A stretch of DNA of 64,000 nucleotides from a virus. Position 1 is the stretch's first letter. Each line of letters opens with the position of its first letter. The notes below the pieces were generated by a model. That model saw only the letters and a list, made by a program, of their open reading frames with translations, was not told the origin of the DNA and searched no databases. The translations under genes were made by a program, and so were the position numbers. Positions 2,433-62,061 of the stretch are shown one piece after another. The DNA lies in the IMG/VR virus record IMGVR_UViG_3300037010_001227, positions 62,001 to 126,000 of that record, one strand, 5' to 3'.

Positions 2433-3029
2433 TTATAGTAGTTTCAGCCCTTTTATACGAAAAATGTCACCAAAGTTGTTCATCAGAGCTAAAGCAGTTA
2501 CTCGGTTATCTAAATCAGGTTCACTCCATTCTGTATAAAAATCAAACCTACAACTATCATAGCGTTGAAGAATCTGTTTAAGACTCTGAGAACCTTCCGG
2601 TGTTAATAATATAATCGTACCATTAGTCCAAGGCGCTAATGGATGCTCTTTCTGAAATTGAGCAACAGCATGAGCTGACTGAACTGCTTTCTGTGACTCA
2701 GATAAAGTCTCATCACAAATAATATAAAGCTTCTTTGCACCTGGATTGTTAAAATACTCTTTCCAAGTATCAATACGCTCACGTAATTTATCACTCAAAT
2801 CACGTAATCTATGTTCATATGCCTTACTGGCATTTTTTGATATAACTTCAATTGGACCTTTGTGAGTCCTATACTTGCTACGTAATTCTGACATAGCTAT
2901 ATGAAGTGCTCTATACTGAACCGTATTAGTTCCAGCGTAGGTTTTAAGTAACAGTTTAGCCTTTTTCCAAGCTTCTTTTTGTTCAGCAGTGAAATTAGGA
3001 CGAGTTTTAATAGTAGTTTCGATAGCCAT
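2433..3029 (-). CDS. PTH2-like (peptidyl-tRNA hydrolase fold) protein
   Basis: The start at 3029 (MAIETTIKTRPN) follows AAGGAGACC; the upstream ATG lacks a site. The C-terminal ~100 of 198 residues starts with KKLYIICDETLSESQKAVQ and continues SAHAVAQFQKEH. This resembles the KxAxQxAHA signature of the PTH2 family, which frees tRNA from stalled peptidyl-tRNA. The N-terminal ~95 residues are helical and basic and unlike the family, so this is a fusion or a distant relative. Its place inside a tRNA array suits a tRNA-linked role, but activity is inference. Confidence 0.5.
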   Translation of the reverse strand: MAIETTIKTRPNFTAEQKEAWKKAKLLLKTYAGTNTVQYRALHIAMSELRSKYRTHKGPIEVISKNASKAYEHRLRDLSDKLRERIDTWKEYFNNPGAKKLYIICDETLSESQKAVQSAHAVAQFQKEHPLAPWTNGTIILLTPEGSQSLKQILQRYDSCRFDFYTEWSEPDLDNRVTALALMNNFGDIFRIKGLKLL

Positions 3030-3155
3030 TTGATGGTCTCCTTGAAAAATTGGCACTTTATAAAGGTGTAACTCTTCACAAGATCAAGGCGATCTACTTA
3101 CAACCTAAAGATGATTAAAGCTCATAAACATGATGTTACTCCTAATATATAATTC

Positions 3156-3229
3156 TGGTGTTTCTGACAGGAATTGAACCCGTATAAACTATTTTAGAGA
3201 TAGCTGCTCTACCGTTGAGCTACAGAAAC
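3156..3229 (-). tRNA. tRNA with CTA anticodon (amber-decoding)
   Basis: A fully canonical 74-nt tRNA: acceptor GTTTCTG/CAGAAAC, D arm GCTC/GAGC, anticodon stem GCTAT/ATAGT with loop CTCTAAA, T arm ACGGG-TTCAATT-CCTGT, discriminator A and encoded CCA. Positions 34-36 are C, T, A, so it should read UAG. The loop differs from the common Trp loop CTCCAAA by one base, as in tRNA-Trp-derived suppressors. The amino acid it carries cannot be read from sequence. Confidence 0.9.
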
Positions 3230-5344: not shown

Positions 5345-5870
5345 AGGCACAAAATTTGAAGATTTTCAATACTATTGTTTGTTCTGTCTTTATCTATACG
5401 ATAAACAATTAACAATTCCGGTAACTTATCATATCCGCAATTATTACAGTTATTTGTATTATTTCTTTTTCTATTTCTCTGTAACTATAATCTCCACTTT
5501 TAAAATCTATTCTAACTAATAAATTTCGTTCAGTTTGTTTAGCTAAATCACAACATTTATGAGAACAAAAATGTAGTCCAGATTTTTTAGAATCAAATAA
5601 TTTACTAATATAATAAGATTTTCCACATAATGAACAAACACAATTATGTGGCTTGTCTTATTTTGTAAACAGCTTATTATATAACAATATGTGCAAGATT
5701 TACAACAAAACTTAGCTCTCACTCTATTAAGTTATTTATTTTCAGCTTCAATATATCTTGCAATATAAACATTTTACAATAGTTTTTGATATATTGGCAG
5801 ATATCCTTTGTATTTATTTACAAAGAAGACAGACCATCCACTAAATAAAAGTTTACAGTCAAATACACAA
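5345..5870 (-). pseudogene. decayed HNH endonuclease
   Basis: In several minus-strand frames one can read zinc-finger pieces (FCCKSC, CVCSLCGKSYY, FCSHKCCDLA) and the HNH core CGYDKLPELLIVYRIDKDR followed by TNNSIENLQILC. The usual H-H before the Asp is replaced by Y-R, and the pieces are separated by stops and frameshifts. This is a homing endonuclease relic inside the tRNA array; no intact gene remains. Confidence 0.7.
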
Positions 5871-10127: not shown

Positions 10128-11381
10128 ATGCTTTTCAGACATTTGCTTACTCAAAACTACTCAGTAGGTAAAAGAGGTCAACATATAAGTAAACGGTCAC
10201 TCTCCAAAACTGACCGGAATCTTCATTCTCTGATACTTATAGATATATCTTACCTGTGTTACATTCTGGAATCAAAACATAACTCAAAACAATCTAAACT
10301 ATACAATGCTTTTACTGAAAGTACACTCCAGACTCTACACAAAAATTCACGGTTTCTGACCCTAAAACAAAAACGCATCCTCTATTATATGCGTGAAACA
10401 ATTTTAGGCATGATTTCTGACATAACTTCTTTGGTTAGACCGAAATACATACTTCTGGTATATGGATCTTCTGAGACTTTAGTTGAGAATAAGTATATAG
10501 AAGAAATAGTAAGGACTATATTATGCCCTCTCCAGTTTGATTCATATAATTTAACTGGAAATACTTTCTCTGACTTTCTATTCTCCTATTGCCAGTCTTT
10601 AAAGAATCTATCTACTTATAATATAATCTCTGTAACAAATTCTATTACAGCTTGGGCTTGTAATTCTCATACCACTCAGATGGGTTACATAGCATTCTCA
10701 AAAAACTTAAGACCTTTATATTATAATAACAAAACAGGTATTGATATTGTTTGTAAGTTTATTAATACCAGTAAAATTGTTAATAAACTTAATATAGATG
10801 AGTTGAAATATATTAACTTACAATACCTGTATCTTCTGTTATTATATACCAGATTTATGCATCATGTAGATACAAGTAAAGAATTTTATTTCGATGCTAA
10901 ATACTTTAAAACTGTTAAACAAATAGATTATTCTGTATTTCTGAACTCTAAAGGTTTAGGACTTCAAATGATAGCTGAAGCTCACAAATCTTTATCTTAT
11001 ATATTTCTTACTAAGCCAGATTTAATGGATCAGTTTTTATTTTACAATACAAATACTTTTCTACTAAATATACAACGATTACATAAAATAATAAAGTTTG
11101 ATACTGATTTTATGTCTTATTTTTCTAACTATTATTGTATGAATGATATGTTACGTAAGATCCCATTATCTGAAATCAAGCTATCACCTATATATAATAT
11201 GTCACTATCACGACCTAGCTTGTATCCAAAGCAATATGATGACTTACTTAAAGTGTTGCACACCAGAAAGATATGTGAACCCTCTGATGAAAAACAGTCA
11301 GGGCTTCAGGATACAACGTCCGATATATCTTCAGGCGTTTCTGACGCTATTTGTAACATTTTAAGGCGCTTGCTATGGTAG
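10128..11381 (+). CDS. FEN/PIN-like fold protein, probably inactive paralogue
   Basis: A 417-residue protein of unknown family, but its order of strands resembles the FEN nuclease encoded next door. LILIDISYLCYILESK mirrors the neighbour's YLLVDGSN. KYILLVYGSSETL matches ALVAMDLGGS, and YNIISVTNSITAWACNS matches CIILSNDTDFLQL. The acidic active-site residues at EADD and SNDTD are absent. It overlaps the FEN gene start (ATGGTAG) and first in the operon. I infer a duplicated, catalytically dead structural partner. The ribosome site is weak (GGTAAG). Confidence 0.6.
   Translation: MLFRHLLTQNYSVGKRGQHISKRSLSKTDRNLHSLILIDISYLCYILESKHNSKQSKLYNAFTESTLQTLHKNSRFLTLKQKRILYYMRETILGMISDITSLVRPKYILLVYGSSETLVENKYIEEIVRTILCPLQFDSYNLTGNTFSDFLFSYCQSLKNLSTYNIISVTNSITAWACNSHTTQMGYIAFSKNLRPLYYNNKTGIDIVCKFINTSKIVNKLNIDELKYINLQYLYLLLLYTRFMHHVDTSKEFYFDAKYFKTVKQIDYSVFLNSKGLGLQMIAEAHKSLSYIFLTKPDLMDQFLFYNTNTFLLNIQRLHKIIKFDTDFMSYFSNYYCMNDMLRKIPLSEIKLSPIYNMSLSRPSLYPKQYDDLLKVLHTRKICEPSDEKQSGLQDTTSDISSGVSDAICNILRRLLW
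11318..11327 (+). promoter_or_regulatory. GTCCGATATA motif, candidate promoter
   Basis: A perfect copy of the recurring motif, 48 bases upstream of the FEN gene start and inside the end of the preceding gene. Confidence 0.5.
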
Positions 11382-12433
11382 TTTCTCAACGATTTATTGA
11401 CAGTCATCCCTATCTTTTAGTGGATGGTTCTAATCTATTAATGCGATTATTATATGTAAAACAGAAAGAGTCTACACTTTACACAGAACCAGAGCTTATT
11501 GCATACACCGCAGATTGGTTTATTCAGCAAGTGTCGAAGATTGTAAAGGATAATTGTTGTTCAGGTGCTTTAGTTGCCATGGACTTAGGTGGTTCAATTA
11601 GAAAGCATGCACTATATAGTGAATACAAAGCTAATCGTAAGATGGCTGCAATGTCATCAGGATTAGGTGATGATCGAGGTAATTTTCTAAAAGAGCTTTA
11701 TCCTAAACTTCGTCAGAAGGTAGTTGAGCTATGTAGACTCTATAACATTCCAACATTCTTTGAGTCCGGTATTGAGGCTGATGATATTTTAGGTTTGCTT
11801 GCAGAAGCACTAAACAATGCTGGTAAGGATTGCATTATTCTGAGCAATGATACAGACTTTTTACAACTTTGTGCGTTTCCTAAAATCTCCTGTATAATCC
11901 CTTATAAGAAGGCTGTAGTTGACATGCACACCTTCCCAGCATACTTTGAAAGTAGCAATAAAAACTATGCAGGTGTTAAGATTCACGCTTGTGAGTATAT
12001 CTTCTATAAGTCTGTTTGTGGGGATAAAGGAGACAATATCTTTGGTATTAATGGTATCGGATACAAGACTCTTCATAAAAAGAAAGAGGCTTATTTCACA
12101 GCTTACCCTGAAATGGCTAAACTTTTTACTGCTGACCAAATTCAGTTTCTAGAAGTTTGCAACACTATGCCAAACAACCATGAATTTGAAAAATTGATCC
12201 ATGATCATTACGATACTATTATTCTAAACTACAAACTTATCGACCTGTCCAGTAAATATGCTTCTGCCACTTTGATAAATGAATCTTACAAGATCCTTAA
12301 ACAGAAGCGCGAGCCTAAACCAGACAAAATGACTATTATTAAAGAGTTCAACAACATATTTAACGTAGCTCCTAATGTAATGGCTGTTGTATCGTCTTTA
12401 ACAGGCTTGAAAGCGATATACCTTCAGGACTAG
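11375..12433 (+). CDS. 5'-3' exonuclease / flap endonuclease (T4 RNase H-like)
   Basis: The 352-residue protein has the FEN signature: LLVDGSNLLMRLL near residue 12, YSEYKANRK after the first strand set, GIEADDILGLLAEA, CIILSNDTDFLQLC, and the helix-hairpin-helix block CGDKGDNIFGINGIGYKT. The Asp/Glu residues that bind metal are present. These enzymes remove RNA primers and flaps during lagging-strand synthesis. It is followed by primase, in keeping with a replication operon. It ends in TAG, with the primase frame in phase downstream. Confidence 0.9.
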   Translation: MVVSQRFIDSHPYLLVDGSNLLMRLLYVKQKESTLYTEPELIAYTADWFIQQVSKIVKDNCCSGALVAMDLGGSIRKHALYSEYKANRKMAAMSSGLGDDRGNFLKELYPKLRQKVVELCRLYNIPTFFESGIEADDILGLLAEALNNAGKDCIILSNDTDFLQLCAFPKISCIIPYKKAVVDMHTFPAYFESSNKNYAGVKIHACEYIFYKSVCGDKGDNIFGINGIGYKTLHKKKEAYFTAYPEMAKLFTADQIQFLEVCNTMPNNHEFEKLIHDHYDTIILNYKLIDLSSKYASATLINESYKILKQKREPKPDKMTIIKEFNNIFNVAPNVMAVVSSLTGLKAIYLQD

Positions 12434-12441
12434 CCTTCATC

Positions 12442-12451
12442 GTCCGATATG
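12442..12451 (+). promoter_or_regulatory. GTCCGATATG motif, candidate promoter
   Basis: A copy of the recurring motif 16 bases before the primase start. It contains an ATG that could be mistaken for that start. Confidence 0.5.
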
Positions 12452-12466
12452 CCTTTCGAGGTTACC

Positions 12467-13357
12467 ATGTTTGAACTAACTGGCGAAGAGATAATTCTTA
12501 AATGCCCAAGATGCCCACAGCATAGTGAGCCTAAATTATATGTAAATCCTGAAAAGGGTGTATTTAACTGTTTCAGATGCAGTGATTTTAGAGGTCCACT
12601 TTGGATACTATCTCGACAGTATCCAAAGCTTTACGCAGAGATTGAAGATTCCGTTTCTTTATCTGTTTATACAAGGTTGAAGAATAACTCTGCTAAATAT
12701 GAACGTCCTACTTTAGATGATTCAGTTTTTTCAGATTTAAAATCTGTTCAACAAATAACAGAAGAAGATCCACAATATCTATATCTTTTAGGTCGTGGTT
12801 GGTCAGATGATATTATTGCACTTTATAGACCTTTAAAATCTACTACCCCAAAGTTCAAAGATCGTGTAATAATTCCAGTAGTTTCAGGTAATAAAATTGT
12901 GTATTTTACAGCAAGAGATATTACCGGAAAGGCAGATCAGAAATATATTAATCCTGTTAAAGAAAAAGATTTTATTTTTACAGCAAAAACTCCAGTAGAT
13001 TCTATTTATAACAAAGATGCATTTATTTGTGAAGGAGTTTTTGATAGTTTTAAAATTCCTGGTTGCTGTTCTCTTCTTGGTAAGACCTTAAATAAGACTC
13101 AACACAAGCCTTTGTATGAGTTCTTGAAGACAAGAGATAACATTTATATATGCTTGGACCCAGGAACTAAGAAAGATGCATTAAAACTCGCATCAGAGAT
13201 TGATTCTTGGTTCATGGATAAAAATATTTACATTATGAATTGGGTGAAAGACGCTTCAATTACAATAGACCTTGGTGATATATCTAAAAAATATAACTAC
13301 AGACAGATCCTAAAGTTTATTAAACGTGAATCATCTCCTTACGAATCTTACAAGTAA
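12467..13357 (+). CDS. DNA primase, DnaG-type
   Basis: The start at 12467 (MFELTGEEI) is preferred because GAGGTTACC precedes it and the earlier ATG is part of the promoter-like motif. A zinc-binding module (CPRCPQH then FNCFRC) lies at about residues 11-40. A Toprim domain follows with CEGVFDSFKI and YICLDPGTKKDA, the acidic metal-binding strands. Primases make RNA primers on ssDNA. The length (296 aa) is short for DnaG and close to T4 gp61; no helicase-binding domain is recognised. Confidence 0.87.
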   Translation: MFELTGEEIILKCPRCPQHSEPKLYVNPEKGVFNCFRCSDFRGPLWILSRQYPKLYAEIEDSVSLSVYTRLKNNSAKYERPTLDDSVFSDLKSVQQITEEDPQYLYLLGRGWSDDIIALYRPLKSTTPKFKDRVIIPVVSGNKIVYFTARDITGKADQKYINPVKEKDFIFTAKTPVDSIYNKDAFICEGVFDSFKIPGCCSLLGKTLNKTQHKPLYEFLKTRDNIYICLDPGTKKDALKLASEIDSWFMDKNIYIMNWVKDASITIDLGDISKKYNYRQILKFIKRESSPYESYK

Positions 13358-30864: not shown

Positions 30865-30896
30865 CCTTTACGACGTTTTTTATGAGGCATCAAGGA

Positions 30897-33800
30897 ATGA
30901 CATTTCAAACACTACAGCAGCAATACTTAGAAGCTAAAGGCAAAACATTAGAGACTGCATCGGAGGCTATGATAAGCGATGCAACTGCGTATGCTTCTTG
31001 TTATGATTGGTATATTACTAAGCAGTTAGTATCAGATAGTACCGCAGATTTGGCCTCTAAAGTATGGGTTAATAAGTATGCTCTGCATGATAAGAATGGT
31101 ATTTGCAGAGAGCGAACACTAGAAGATACTTGGAAGCGTATTGCTAAAACTCTGGCCGAAGTAGAAGTAGCCAACAGTGGTGATTCCGCTAATGAGTTTT
31201 CTAAATGGAATGATATTTTCTTAGACGCTCTTCAGGATTTTAAGTATGCTCCGGGTGGTAGTGGACTATACAGTATTGGAAACCCGTATACCTGTTCCAG
31301 CGTTTCTAACTGCTTCGTAATGAATCCTCCACAGGATAATCTTGAGTCTATCTTTGATGTTGCTAAAAGTATGGCAAGAGTTTACGCTAACCGTGGGGGC
31401 TGTGGTGTAGATATTTCTAATCTACGCCCCTGTAATGCTCCTACAAATAACGCTGCAAAGTCTTCTACTGGCGCTGCTAGTTTTATGGACTTCTATAGTT
31501 ATGTTACAGGAAAGATTGGTCAAGAAGGCAGACGTGGTGCCCTTCTGATGTCAATGCGTATTGACCATCCTGATATTTTTAAGTTCATTAAAATGAAACG
31601 TGACGAAGACAAGCAATGGTTTATTACTGAACTTGAAGAGGCTGGAATTGATCTTAAAGATTATAAATATTCAGCTATTGCTGATAGACTCAAGTCTTGC
31701 TCACAGTCAAACGTATCTGTAAAAATTACAGATAAGTTCATTTCTGCATTAGAAAAAGATGAGATGTTTGAACTTTGGTTTGAATATGATAATGGCTACC
31801 CAAGATACTCTGAATTTGTGAGAGCAAAAGATATTTGGGATGCTCTTATTGAAGGTGCTTGGGCTTCTGCTGAACCAGGAATGTTTAACTGGGATCATAT
31901 CCTACGAGAGTCTACTTCTGGAAAATACGATGGAGTAATATATAAAGGTAAGAAAGTTCAGGGTAAAGAAATTACAAGTAATCCTTGTCAACCGGGGTTT
32001 GCTACTGTTCTTACTCCAAATGGGATCAGAACCTTCGATGACATCACTGTTGGCTCTACAATTTGGTCTGGTAACCAATGGACAAGAGTTGTAAATAAAG
32101 TAGCAACTGGGATTAAAAAAGTTTTTCGTTATACCACTAATGCTGGTGAGTTCATCGGCACAGAAAACCATCGTGTTGTAAGTAATGGTACTAAAGTTGA
32201 AGTTGGAAAAACTGATAGTATTGATATTTGTATTGGTAACCCTTCTTTTCTACGGTTGGATATTGAAGGGTGTAGAATGGCTGAAAATAGTCAAACTATT
32301 ATGGATGGTTGGGTAATTGGAGATGGTTCTGTTCATACTGCAAGTAACAATTTAGTTTTTATCTGTGTTGGAGAAAATGATTACGACATTCATACAGCAT
32401 TACCAGAGTATCTGATAAAAGCTCGCCCTGACATTAAAGAGACCGCTTGGGAAGTTAACACTACTATTACAGCAGATGAGCTTTCTCTTACTTATAGTAG
32501 AAGAGTTCCAAGTAGATTTAAATTTGGTAGTTTTGATACTGTTGCAGATTTTCTTTGCGGATTATACTCGGCTAACGGATCTATTACTGAAAATAGAGTA
32601 ACGTTAAAGTCAGCTTCTGTTGGATTAATTAAAGATGTTCAAGAGATGCTTTCTTCGTTAGGTATTTCTTCTTACGTTACTATAAATAAGGAAAAAGAAG
32701 TAGAATTTTCTGAAGGTTCTTATACCTACAAAGAACCTTATGTTTTAAACATCGGTGACATAGTTAATAAAACTAAATTTTGTAAGCTTATAGGATTTAA
32801 GCAAGACTATAAACTTGATAACTTAATCAACGTTATTAAGGATGAGTCTCATGGTGGAAAAACTACATATGATATCACCACTATTACTGAAGTAGGAGAC
32901 TTAGAAGTATTTGATATTACCGTAGATGCAGATGAGCATACCTATTGGACTGGCGGACTTTTAGTGTCAAACTGTGGCGAAATTGTAATGCCTCCAGATA
33001 GTTGCAACCTTGGTCAGATGTATCTTCCTGCTTTCGTAGAATATCCTTATACCCCAGAGGCATATTTTAACCGGGAGAAATACGAGAAGTACGCTGCTAT
33101 TGCAGTTAGAATGCAAGACAATATTAAACAACTTGATATTGATTCTGGTCTACTGCTTCCTGAACATCAGTTATCTGCTGAAGCTTTTAGACGTTTAGGA
33201 CTGGGTAATACTGGTTATGGTGATATGTTTGCAATGCTAGGAATCAAATATGGTTCTGATGAATCTATTGCTTGTGCTGAAAACATTGCAGAAATTTATA
33301 AAGAGGTTGTCTATAATGCTTCTGTAGATCTAGCAATTGATAAAGGTTCTTTCCCTGTTTTTGATTGGGATCGTCATAAGCAAAGTCCGTTCATTCAGAG
33401 ACTGAAACCAGAAACTCAGCAGCGTATTGCATCTTTTGGTATTAGAAATATTGCACTACTAACACAAGCTCCTAATGGAACTGGTTCTATTCTTTGCAGA
33501 AACACTACTTCTGGTCTTGAACCAATGTTCTTTGCTGAATCAAATAGAAATGTTAAGAATCCTGACGGTTCAATTACTCGTTATACTGTTTACCATCAGG
33601 GAATTGAAGATTGCAAACGTGCTGGTGGCGATCCTTCTGTTTATGTTGCTGCTCATGATGTTTCTTATGAGAAGAAGATTGAACTTCAGGCAGCAATGCA
33701 GAAGCACATTGATCACTCAATCAGCGTTACAGCTAATCTTCCAGCAGAAATCAGTAAAGAAGAAATTGGAAGTCTTTATCTAAAAGCTTTTAAACTTGGT

Positions 33801-34445
33801 TGTAAAGGTTTCACAGTGTATCGTGAAGGTTCAAGAGGAAGTGTTTTATCTGCTTTAGATGAAAAGAAAGTTGTAAAGCGGTTACTCGATAAACCACTTG
33901 AACGTCCTAAGACAACTGAAGTTGATATTCATAAGGTAAAATATAAGGATAAGCCTTGGTCAGTTCTTGTTGGAAGTCTTGATGGGATTCCAATTGAAGT
34001 ATTTGCTGGTATTGAAGAAGACACTCCGCTCCCAAATAAATACCATAAGGCCGAACTGACTAAGAAGTCTAAAGGTCATTATTCCCTAACTGTTTATCTT
34101 TCTGCTGATTCACAAGAAGATGTTATTAAGATAAACAATATTGGCGCAAGATTCCCATCACCGGAAGGTTTAGTTCTTACACGGTTCATTTCATTATTAC
34201 TTCGTAATCGTGTTCCAATTTCTGATATTGTTGAGCAGCTTCAGAAATCAGCAAGTTCTATGTTTGATTACCCAGCTGTTCTAGCAAGAGTTCTTAAGCA
34301 GTATGCTTCGGATGAAGAGTTAGCTGCTAAAATTAAAGGAACACCATGTCCTGACTGTGGTAAAGAACTTAAAATAAAACGAGAGAGTGGTTGCTCTGTA
34401 GTATATTGTGAAAATTGTAATTACGTAGATAGTAAGTGTGGTTAA
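30897..34445 (+). CDS. nrdJ: class II ribonucleotide reductase with intein
   Basis: The 1182-residue frame has NrdJ features: YTCSSVSNCFVMNPP with the early cysteine, NRGGCGVDISNLRP, GRRGALLMSMRIDHPD, CNLGQMYLP after the intein, NTTSGLEPMFFAES near the catalytic loop, and a C-terminal zinc ribbon with CPDCGKE and CENCNYVDSKCG. Class II enzymes reduce ribonucleotides with adenosylcobalamin. The start at 30897 (MTFQTLQQQ) is preferred because GAGG lies nine bases upstream; an ATG at 30882 has no site. The host would need to supply B12. The Tad2-like gene follows 10 bases later. Confidence 0.92.
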   Translation: MTFQTLQQQYLEAKGKTLETASEAMISDATAYASCYDWYITKQLVSDSTADLASKVWVNKYALHDKNGICRERTLEDTWKRIAKTLAEVEVANSGDSANEFSKWNDIFLDALQDFKYAPGGSGLYSIGNPYTCSSVSNCFVMNPPQDNLESIFDVAKSMARVYANRGGCGVDISNLRPCNAPTNNAAKSSTGAASFMDFYSYVTGKIGQEGRRGALLMSMRIDHPDIFKFIKMKRDEDKQWFITELEEAGIDLKDYKYSAIADRLKSCSQSNVSVKITDKFISALEKDEMFELWFEYDNGYPRYSEFVRAKDIWDALIEGAWASAEPGMFNWDHILRESTSGKYDGVIYKGKKVQGKEITSNPCQPGFATVLTPNGIRTFDDITVGSTIWSGNQWTRVVNKVATGIKKVFRYTTNAGEFIGTENHRVVSNGTKVEVGKTDSIDICIGNPSFLRLDIEGCRMAENSQTIMDGWVIGDGSVHTASNNLVFICVGENDYDIHTALPEYLIKARPDIKETAWEVNTTITADELSLTYSRRVPSRFKFGSFDTVADFLCGLYSANGSITENRVTLKSASVGLIKDVQEMLSSLGISSYVTINKEKEVEFSEGSYTYKEPYVLNIGDIVNKTKFCKLIGFKQDYKLDNLINVIKDESHGGKTTYDITTITEVGDLEVFDITVDADEHTYWTGGLLVSNCGEIVMPPDSCNLGQMYLPAFVEYPYTPEAYFNREKYEKYAAIAVRMQDNIKQLDIDSGLLLPEHQLSAEAFRRLGLGNTGYGDMFAMLGIKYGSDESIACAENIAEIYKEVVYNASVDLAIDKGSFPVFDWDRHKQSPFIQRLKPETQQRIASFGIRNIALLTQAPNGTGSILCRNTTSGLEPMFFAESNRNVKNPDGSITRYTVYHQGIEDCKRAGGDPSVYVAAHDVSYEKKIELQAAMQKHIDHSISVTANLPAEISKEEIGSLYLKAFKLGCKGFTVYREGSRGSVLSALDEKKVVKRLLDKPLERPKTTEVDIHKVKYKDKPWSVLVGSLDGIPIEVFAGIEEDTPLPNKYHKAELTKKSKGHYSLTVYLSADSQEDVIKINNIGARFPSPEGLVLTRFISLLLRNRVPISDIVEQLQKSASSMFDYPAVLARVLKQYASDEELAAKIKGTPCPDCGKELKIKRESGCSVVYCENCNYVDSKCG
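31986..32972 (+). other. intein inside NrdJ
   Basis: A 329-residue in-frame insertion splits the conserved NPC-GEI motif. It starts with Cys (CQPGFATVLTPNG, block A), ends HTYWTGGLLVSN with +1 Cys, and restores a NPCGEIVMPP junction. Homing endonuclease motifs are WVIGDGSVHT and FLCGLYSANGSI, where the second should read DADG-like. The Asp is Asn, so splicing looks intact but endonuclease activity is doubtful. Confidence 0.9.
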
Positions 34446-61939: not shown

Positions 61940-62061
61940 ATTCTATTTAAACAACCACTGTTAATGCTGGTATAAGAATAGTCTTATACTGGTGTGTTTG
62001 TTGATCCTTGTAGTGAGAGAGTGTGGGAACACAACAAGACAGTGGTTATTTAAATAGAATT
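61939..62061 (+). ncRNA. long imperfect inverted repeat, possible structured RNA
   Basis: A 23-base arm beginning at the CCA end of tRNA-Leu (61939-61961) matches the reverse complement of 62039-62061 at 22 of 23 bases. The ~77-base interior holds GTATAAG-AATAGT-CTTATAC and further pairs, so a multi-branched fold is likely. No gene is seen inside. It may be processed with the tRNA. Confidence 0.55.

Follow-up and report, generated by a model that had tools for sequence, protein, structure and literature searches.

Why would a phage whose genes still end in TAG carry a tRNA that reads UAG? The question is raised by a tRNA gene with the anticodon CUA (tRNA-CUA) in a 64,000-nucleotide stretch of viral DNA, hereafter the window (positions 62,001 to 126,000 of IMG/VR virus record IMGVR_UViG_3300037010_001227). 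We found that tRNA-CUA lies directly upstream of a gene for a protein resembling PTH2 peptidyl-tRNA hydrolases, with a short leader open reading frame (ORF) between the two, and that in many other phages the PTH2-like gene is interrupted near its start by an in-frame stop codon, here called a gate, that matches the anticodon of a suppressor tRNA. Because of the covariation between gate and anticodon and the linkage of tRNA and gene, we regard tRNA-CUA as a probable dedicated suppressor, which would switch on the linked PTH2-like gene either directly or through a leader. We assign this reading a probability of roughly 0.7.

The amber tRNA and the use of TAG

ARAGORN identified tRNA-CUA on the minus strand (Table 1), its label "Pyl" being the default of the program for CTA. 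The gene (GTTTCTGTAGCTCAACGGTAGAGCAGCTATCTCTAAAATAGTTTATACGGGTTCAATTCCTGTCAGAAACACCA, with the CCA being part of it) matched the Rfam tRNA model RF00005 over its full length with 68.4 bits (E = 8.6e-13) and zero mispairs, which was the second best Rfam tRNA score in the window. An initial annotation, made from the letters of the window, had described a canonical tRNA with intact arms, an encoded CCA and a CTA anticodon in a loop one base away from that of tRNA-Trp, and had proposed folding with a covariance model as a check. The model accepted the gene, and the details stand, the anticodon loop being CTCTAAA as against CTCCAAA in the Trp loop. An independent IMG/VR metagenome contig carries the same tRNA-CUA in a match of 100% over 7,276 bp, which excludes an assembly error. 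From its anticodon, tRNA-CUA may be a suppressor, and the G1-C72 pair and A73 do not fix its amino acid. The features of tRNA-Pyl were not found in the tRNA sequence, as the D-arm is normal with GG, the anticodon stem has 5 bp and the variable loop is ordinary. Two tRNA-like genes of the same phage with odd D-arms and the apparent anticodons UCU and CAU (G000:C1:134109-134191 and 71507-71579) were not called by ARAGORN.

The source record is 213,189 bp long and contains ~17 tRNA genes, among which there was no tRNA-Trp gene. Its head and tail genes place the phage as distantly T4-like; no close phage relatives were found in GenBank and no relative was found among bacterial genome contigs. Stop usage was taken from a crude gene call of 143 genes, which ended in TAA (100), TAG (28) or TGA (15). 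The median stretch to the next stop was 4 codons behind TAG, compared with 6 codons behind TAA, with no genome-wide coding excess behind TAG stops relative to TAA stops, and the structural genes were open without in-frame TAG. Since TAG is an ordinary stop here and the stretches behind it are short and not coding-like, the phage has a suppressor tRNA without the genome-wide recoding of TAG that defines code 15. The initial annotation was thus right that the amber tRNA is genuine and that the phage does not wholly recode TAG; its suggestion of general late read-through was not supported, and the linked target was invisible to it. All 15 TGA stops fell within the right-hand region (140-213 kb), and none in the first 120 kb, which contains the structural and replication genes.

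Two candidates for read-through elsewhere in the genome were rejected. An exonuclease and a primase separated by an in-frame TAG (11375-13357, plus strand; TAG at 12431) were judged to be chance neighbours rather than a read-through fusion; 6 of the 100 genes ending in TAA had a similarly long in-frame neighbour too, and a separate start for the primase, with ATG and a GAGG site, lies at 12467. A genome-wide signal consisting of a Shine-Dalgarno (SD) sequence, ATG, a few codons, TAG and a long ORF was not enriched in this phage.

The linked PTH2-like gene and the stop gates of other phages

The PTH2-like protein of the window consists of an N-terminal helical domain of unknown function and a C-terminal PTH2-like domain (~residues 108-192 in 207-aa numbering). 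Its C-terminal half matched phrog_3668 "hydrolase" (5e-8), and no Pfam PTH2 match was obtained for the window protein alone. Relatives detected by tblastn were proteins of Lak phages, XacN1, RAS14, CM1 and others, and the proteins of XacN1, LR756500, IkeLoa and LR756511 passed the cut-off of Pfam PF01981 (PTH2). A joint profile of 18 phage PTH2 domains, that of the window included, matched PDB peptidyl-tRNA hydrolases at 3.5e-5, and Q22, H25, E78 and T86 (first-row numbering) were invariant across these 18 domains. For a modest-quality AlphaFold model of the window protein (predicted local distance difference test score, 60), the best PDB fold match was Pth2 AF2095, with a probability of 0.91, yet with an E value of 0.04. 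Judged from these comparisons, the PTH2 domain assignment appears good, and the enzyme activity is a prediction only.

Related phages were located through the capsid protein and RecA, and most of them had zero tRNA genes on the contigs examined. One relative (L083/L098; RecA 59% identical) had a single tRNA on 67.6 kb, and this tRNA had the anticodon CUA and immediately preceded a homologue of window ORF 2433-3056 with 49% identity. The pair adjoins the primase in this relative and sits between RecA and the packaging genes in the window. A search of IMG/VR for full-length homologues returned four loci (the window, L097, L098 and L099), one of which is the same phage, and all four had a CUA tRNA in cis on the strand of the PTH2-like gene, 100 to 201 bases upstream of it. 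The tRNA and the PTH2-like gene therefore move together across divergence, suggesting that they work together.

PTH2-like genes of unrelated jumbo phages contained an in-frame stop at codons 2-5, which was almost always TAG. In a named set comprising XacN1, RAS14, CM1, ME3, XbC2, Kaldavass, CBB, GAP32, BF, Arash, IkeLoa and five uncultured phages, TAG was at codons 2-4 (ATG, 0 to 2 codons and TAG, followed by the gene in frame), and none of the gates was TAA or TGA (Table 1). The majority of the gated genes had zero ATG, GTG or TTG codons from the gate to the first strand of the domain; with no alternative start behind the gate, the full domain would need read-through. Some annotations break the gated loci into several hypothetical proteins. 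A gene for an HD-domain protein, which is linked to the PTH2-like gene and fused with it in XacN1 and RAS14, was gated too in some phages, and in XacN1 and RAS14 the HD-PTH2 gene was the only conserved case of an SD sequence, ATG, a few codons, TAG and a long ORF. No HD-domain partner gene was found in the phage of the window. An internal TAG of the HD-domain gene (ELDTG*GDP or GDS) was observed at the same place in XbC2, Kaldavass, BF, CBB and GAP32, which correspond to L151, L152, L153, L154 and L163 and are Mimasvirus and Eneladusvirus relatives.

We compared the gates with the anticodons of the tRNAs. We detected a CUA tRNA in XacN1, RAS14, ME3, GAP32, BF, CBB, XbC2, LR756511, Arash, Myrna, IkeLoa, LR756501 and LR756500, and none was seen in the examined parts of the LR745206 and LR756504 genomes; CM1 and Kaldavass were left out of this tally at the anticodon level. 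The PTH2-like gene of RaK2 was ungated, and none of the eight tRNAs in its whole genome had the anticodon CUA. In a wider IMG/VR set with PTH2 loci in 63 clusters, in which a tRNA was counted if it lay within 5 kb, a CUA tRNA accompanied 25 of 26 TAG-gated clusters, compared with 11 of 32 ungated clusters (Fisher p = 1.2e-6). Both TAA-gated PTH2 genes (2/2) had a UUA tRNA, and 2 of 3 TGA-gated PTH2 genes were on contigs with a UCA tRNA, the third being on a 20-kb fragment; of all the evidence, this covariation is the strongest. Over the loci, gate and anticodon agreed 56 times and disagreed once, and the CUA tRNA was on the strand of the gated PTH2 gene in all 46 of 46 loci.

Control genes (recA, gp32, exonuclease, primase, portal and others) had a TAG gate in 0 of ~116 homologues, with TGA in 2 and TAA in 2. 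Among the other ORFs of the same loci, an ATG shortly before an upstream stop was present in 133 of 1049, and the stop was TAG in 55 of these 133. Genes of the gated phages still end in TAG, with ordinary and short extensions, which means that the gates are no side effect of an altered code. Within the HD set by itself, gate and local CUA tRNA showed no association (p = 0.26), perhaps because the tRNA is often beyond the 5 kb examined. A degenerate pattern search for CUA tRNAs missed known cases and was not used.

Some loci contained unusual tRNA arrangements. LR756501 (L158) carries two CUA tRNAs in tandem (5424-5577), and Lak-B7 (L217, L218) carries two different suppressor tRNAs, of which the UUA tRNA adjoins the gated unit and the CUA tRNA is located elsewhere. 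In the huge phages L194 and LR745206, ARAGORN reported tRNA-like genes with four-base anticodons (tcta and gtag); both have a TAG-gated PTH2 gene, and no CUA tRNA was seen in them.

Table 1. Coordinates of the window features, and gates of PTH2-like genes in other phages (asterisk, in-frame stop)
Feature	Position in window	Strand	Phage	Details
Amber suppressor tRNA gene (predicted), anticodon CUA	3229..3156	minus	window	G1-C72, A73, CCA encoded
Leader mini-ORF MFMSFNHL-UAG-VVSRSP-UGA	3131..3084	minus	window	TAGGAG Shine-Dalgarno upstream; codons ATG-TTT-ATG-AGC-TTT-AAT-CAT-CTT-TAG-GTT-GTA-AGT-AGA-TCG-CCT-TGA
In-frame UAG of leader mini-ORF	3105..3107	minus	window	codon proposed for tRNA-CUA
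PTH2-like protein gene	3029..2433	minus	window	198 aa from ATG 3029, AAGGAG upstream; listed ORF 2433-3056 from GTG
Gate MK*TIKAMK			XacN1	
Gate MK*TLNKLK			RAS14, CM1	
Gate MT*IHENKK			ME3	
Gate MAQ*NEKTW			CBB, GAP32	
Gate MAH*NEKTW			XbC2, Kaldavass	
Gate MTH*NDKTW			BF	
Gate ML*NKHW			Arash	
Gate MK*INNHK			LR756500	
Gate MS*IYK			LR756501	
Gate MNN*INE			LR745206	
Gate MT*ITK			LR756504	
Gate MTH*VET			LR756511	
Gate M*VTN			IkeLoa	
Gate GTG-TAG			Myrna	

The leader and the proposed circuit

In most other phages the matching stop is in the start of the gene; in the window it is in the leader ORF only. This leader is the only mini-ORF of the genome that is preceded by an SD sequence and has both a TAG and an R-x-P tail, and its tail is R-S-P-stop, which differs from the RAPP/RGPP of arrest leaders. 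Counterparts were present in 2 of 3 relatives (MKKL-UAG-VSTRPP-UGA in L097 and MKY-UAG-QRPP-UGA in L099). In Lak-B7, where TAG encodes an amino acid, the leader is MKLQHW-UAA-VTCDRGP-UAA with a UUA tRNA adjoining, LR756501 has the leader MS-UAG-SRPP-UAA, and further intervals between gene and tRNA contained MK*VSRGP*, MTH*IRSP* and MKET*IHIRPP*. R-x-P tails occurred in 15 of 927 TAG mini-ORFs, compared with 12 of 4696 in all other mini-ORF classes (p = 4e-6).

RGPP was present in leaders of L356, L357, L373 and L378, and it was the strongest arrest motif in one recent study (PMC12992588). A further group of ORFs (L356:4474, L357:4522, L373:3944 and L378:4184) has M...TAG...RGPP at the beginning and then continues for >100 codons in frame, which suggests a second family of suppressor-dependent genes bearing an arrest motif. 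L357 also contains, at L357:5815, a SpoT-like HD-domain ORF (VRYFEHVRQVAIVLIDKAKI...) whose start is also behind an in-frame TAG.

We propose that the stop in the PTH2-like gene or its leader, matching the anticodon of the tRNA, acts as a gate at which charged suppressor tRNA and release factor would compete. With little charged suppressor tRNA, translation would terminate after a few codons; with enough of it, ribosomes would read on, and the output would track charged suppressor tRNA relative to release factor. In many phages, read-through would make the PTH2 protein directly. In the phage of the window, it would lengthen the leader, which would then end in ...VVSRSP instead of MFMSFNHL, and, by analogy with the other phages, may alter the expression of the PTH2-like gene behind it; the tails RPP, RGP or RGPP of leaders elsewhere resemble the RAPP/RGPP arrest motifs. 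PTH2 enzymes act on peptidyl-tRNA, and the likeliest purpose is therefore feedback or recycling, in which the PTH2 protein might recycle or restrain the tRNA during suppression, a purpose that we offer tentatively.

Several observations weigh against this reading. The PTH2-like ORF of the window has an AAGGAG and an ATG (3029) of its own and zero in-frame stops, so that gating in the window is argued by analogy and through the leader, and in L083/L098, where tRNA and gene are present, a UAG leader was not found. An attenuator, in which the leader ribosome would free the SD sequence, was unsupported in three phages; earlier minimum free energy folds had looked suggestive, and with folds blocked by a ribosome at the UAG or at the second stop, the differences relative to shuffles were -0.21, -0.08 and 0.00. 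In the IMG/VR set, the CUA tRNA was also carried by 11 ungated clusters, and the seed phages partly recur in the set, which is therefore not fully independent. L033, L034 and L035, which have a CUA tRNA with a similar body and were found by tRNA pattern without a PTH2 query, had no PTH2-like gene within several kb and no convincing gate nearby, indicating that phage amber tRNAs can serve other roles. The canonical Lys of archaeal Pth2 appears to be replaced in the phage domains, and the activity may differ.

Among the other explanations, the one that survives best, though unlikely, is that the suppressor tRNA helps the phage to take over the host by spoiling UAG termination there, with the stop-gated PTH2 being an antidote made only under suppression. 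Such a self-limiting pair fits the tight linkage in cis, the conserved pairing and the anticodon-matched gate; however, phages with several dozen ordinary tRNAs carry the pair too, and there recycling is as likely. We consider it slightly less probable that ATG-x-stop is a minigene or leader acting by termination, drop-off or re-initiation without read-through (cf. lambda bar minigenes), the tRNA being linked only through clustering of tRNA-related genes. The gates are indeed very short (M-K-stop and M-T-stop), and minigenes are known to supply Pth with substrate through peptidyl-tRNA drop-off. Most gated genes, however, offer no ATG, GTG or TTG from the gate to the first domain strand, and termination alone leaves unexplained why the identity of the stop tracks the linked anticodon and why RaK2 lacks both the gate and the CUA tRNA.

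General late read-through or a partial code switch, by which the tRNA would let late genes cross UAG as in TAG-recoded phages, is a still poorer candidate. Code-15 phages, Lak among them, typically carry amber tRNAs (PMC6784885), and TAG does end 28 of the 143 genes here, but coding extension shows no excess behind TAG over TAA in this phage or in the gated relatives, the structural genes are free of in-frame TAG, and the gates are limited to one gene family and track the anticodon also where this is UUA or UCA. Finally, although the anticodon loop is one base off Trp and the phage lacks its own tRNA-Trp, a Trp-type tRNA that decayed or mutated and lost its function is very improbable, given stems that are all intact at 68.4 bits and a CUA anticodon kept beside the same gene at ~50-60% protein identity and at another genomic site.

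Relation to known systems and meaning

A phage-encoded CUA tRNA is shared with the TAG-recoded phages (Lak, crAss-like; code 15), which differ in that TAG here is a normal stop genome-wide and the readable stop is in one linked gene or leader. Lak phages likewise have a PTH2-like gene with an adjoining suppressor tRNA; there the tRNA of the pair has the anticodon UUA, the leader has a TAA stop, and the pair is separate from the recoding CUA tRNA of Lak. As in the tRNA-Pyl and tRNA-Sec systems, a special tRNA would serve a stop in only a small number of genes. Unlike those systems, the tRNA has a normal architecture without tRNA-Pyl sequence features, the stop varies by phage together with the anticodon, and the target would be the adjoining gene of tRNA metabolism. 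The leaders resemble the RAPP/RGPP arrest leaders ApdA, ApdP and ApcA (PMC10951233, PMC12992588) in being short upstream ORFs that end in R-x-P(-P) and in their proposed regulation of the next gene. They differ from these in that the motif is behind an in-frame stop, so that the putative arrest would come only after suppression, and in that many of the tails are RPP, RGP or RSP, not RAPP/RGPP.

For XacN1, a Xanthomonas jumbo phage without recoding, CUA tRNAs were reported, and the authors did not find the target (PMC5852040). Here a likely target is visible in the HD-PTH2 gene, which has ATG-AAG-TAG at its true start and was annotated as the hypothetical ORF364 from a downstream start. The mycobacteriophages IkeLoa and Myrna have PTH2 peptidyl-tRNA hydrolases of the same domain family, with a CUA tRNA adjoining and a gene start that contains TAG; their PTH2 genes are annotated from downstream starts, and the link to the CUA tRNA was undescribed in the open-access papers searched. 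The paper on Agrobacterium phage Atu_ph07 reported a UCA suppressor as well as two peptidyl-tRNA hydrolases and drew no connection between them. In the open-access full-text literature, we found no paper that links phage suppressor tRNAs to peptidyl-tRNA hydrolase or to stop-gated starts.

One further gene of the window, encoding the large subunit of ribonucleotide reductase (30882-34445, plus strand; 1187 aa), has family matches at ~115-344 and 698-1183, and the insertion of ~350 aa between the two matching parts is possibly an intein.

The suppressor tRNAs of non-recoding phages have hitherto been without an explained target, as was stated for XacN1 (PMC5852040), and a specific target is proposed here. 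The covariation of codon and anticodon across all three stops would be hard to obtain without decoding. We see an even chance that the loci represent a widespread phage circuit, in which a CUA, UUA or UCA suppressor is dedicated to a linked PTH2/HD gene with a matching stop in its start or leader, in many cases with a suppression-dependent RxP(P) arrest leader, and in which the protein controls the tRNA pool and thereby closes a self-sensing loop. If the reading is true, the unit would be a natural suppressor-gated gene circuit, and it would explain genes that annotation has cut short or split (XacN1 ORF364, GAP32_397 to 399 and ME3_194 to 196). The role of phage suppressor tRNAs would then become testable by one reporter, and the unit would offer natural parts for translational control.
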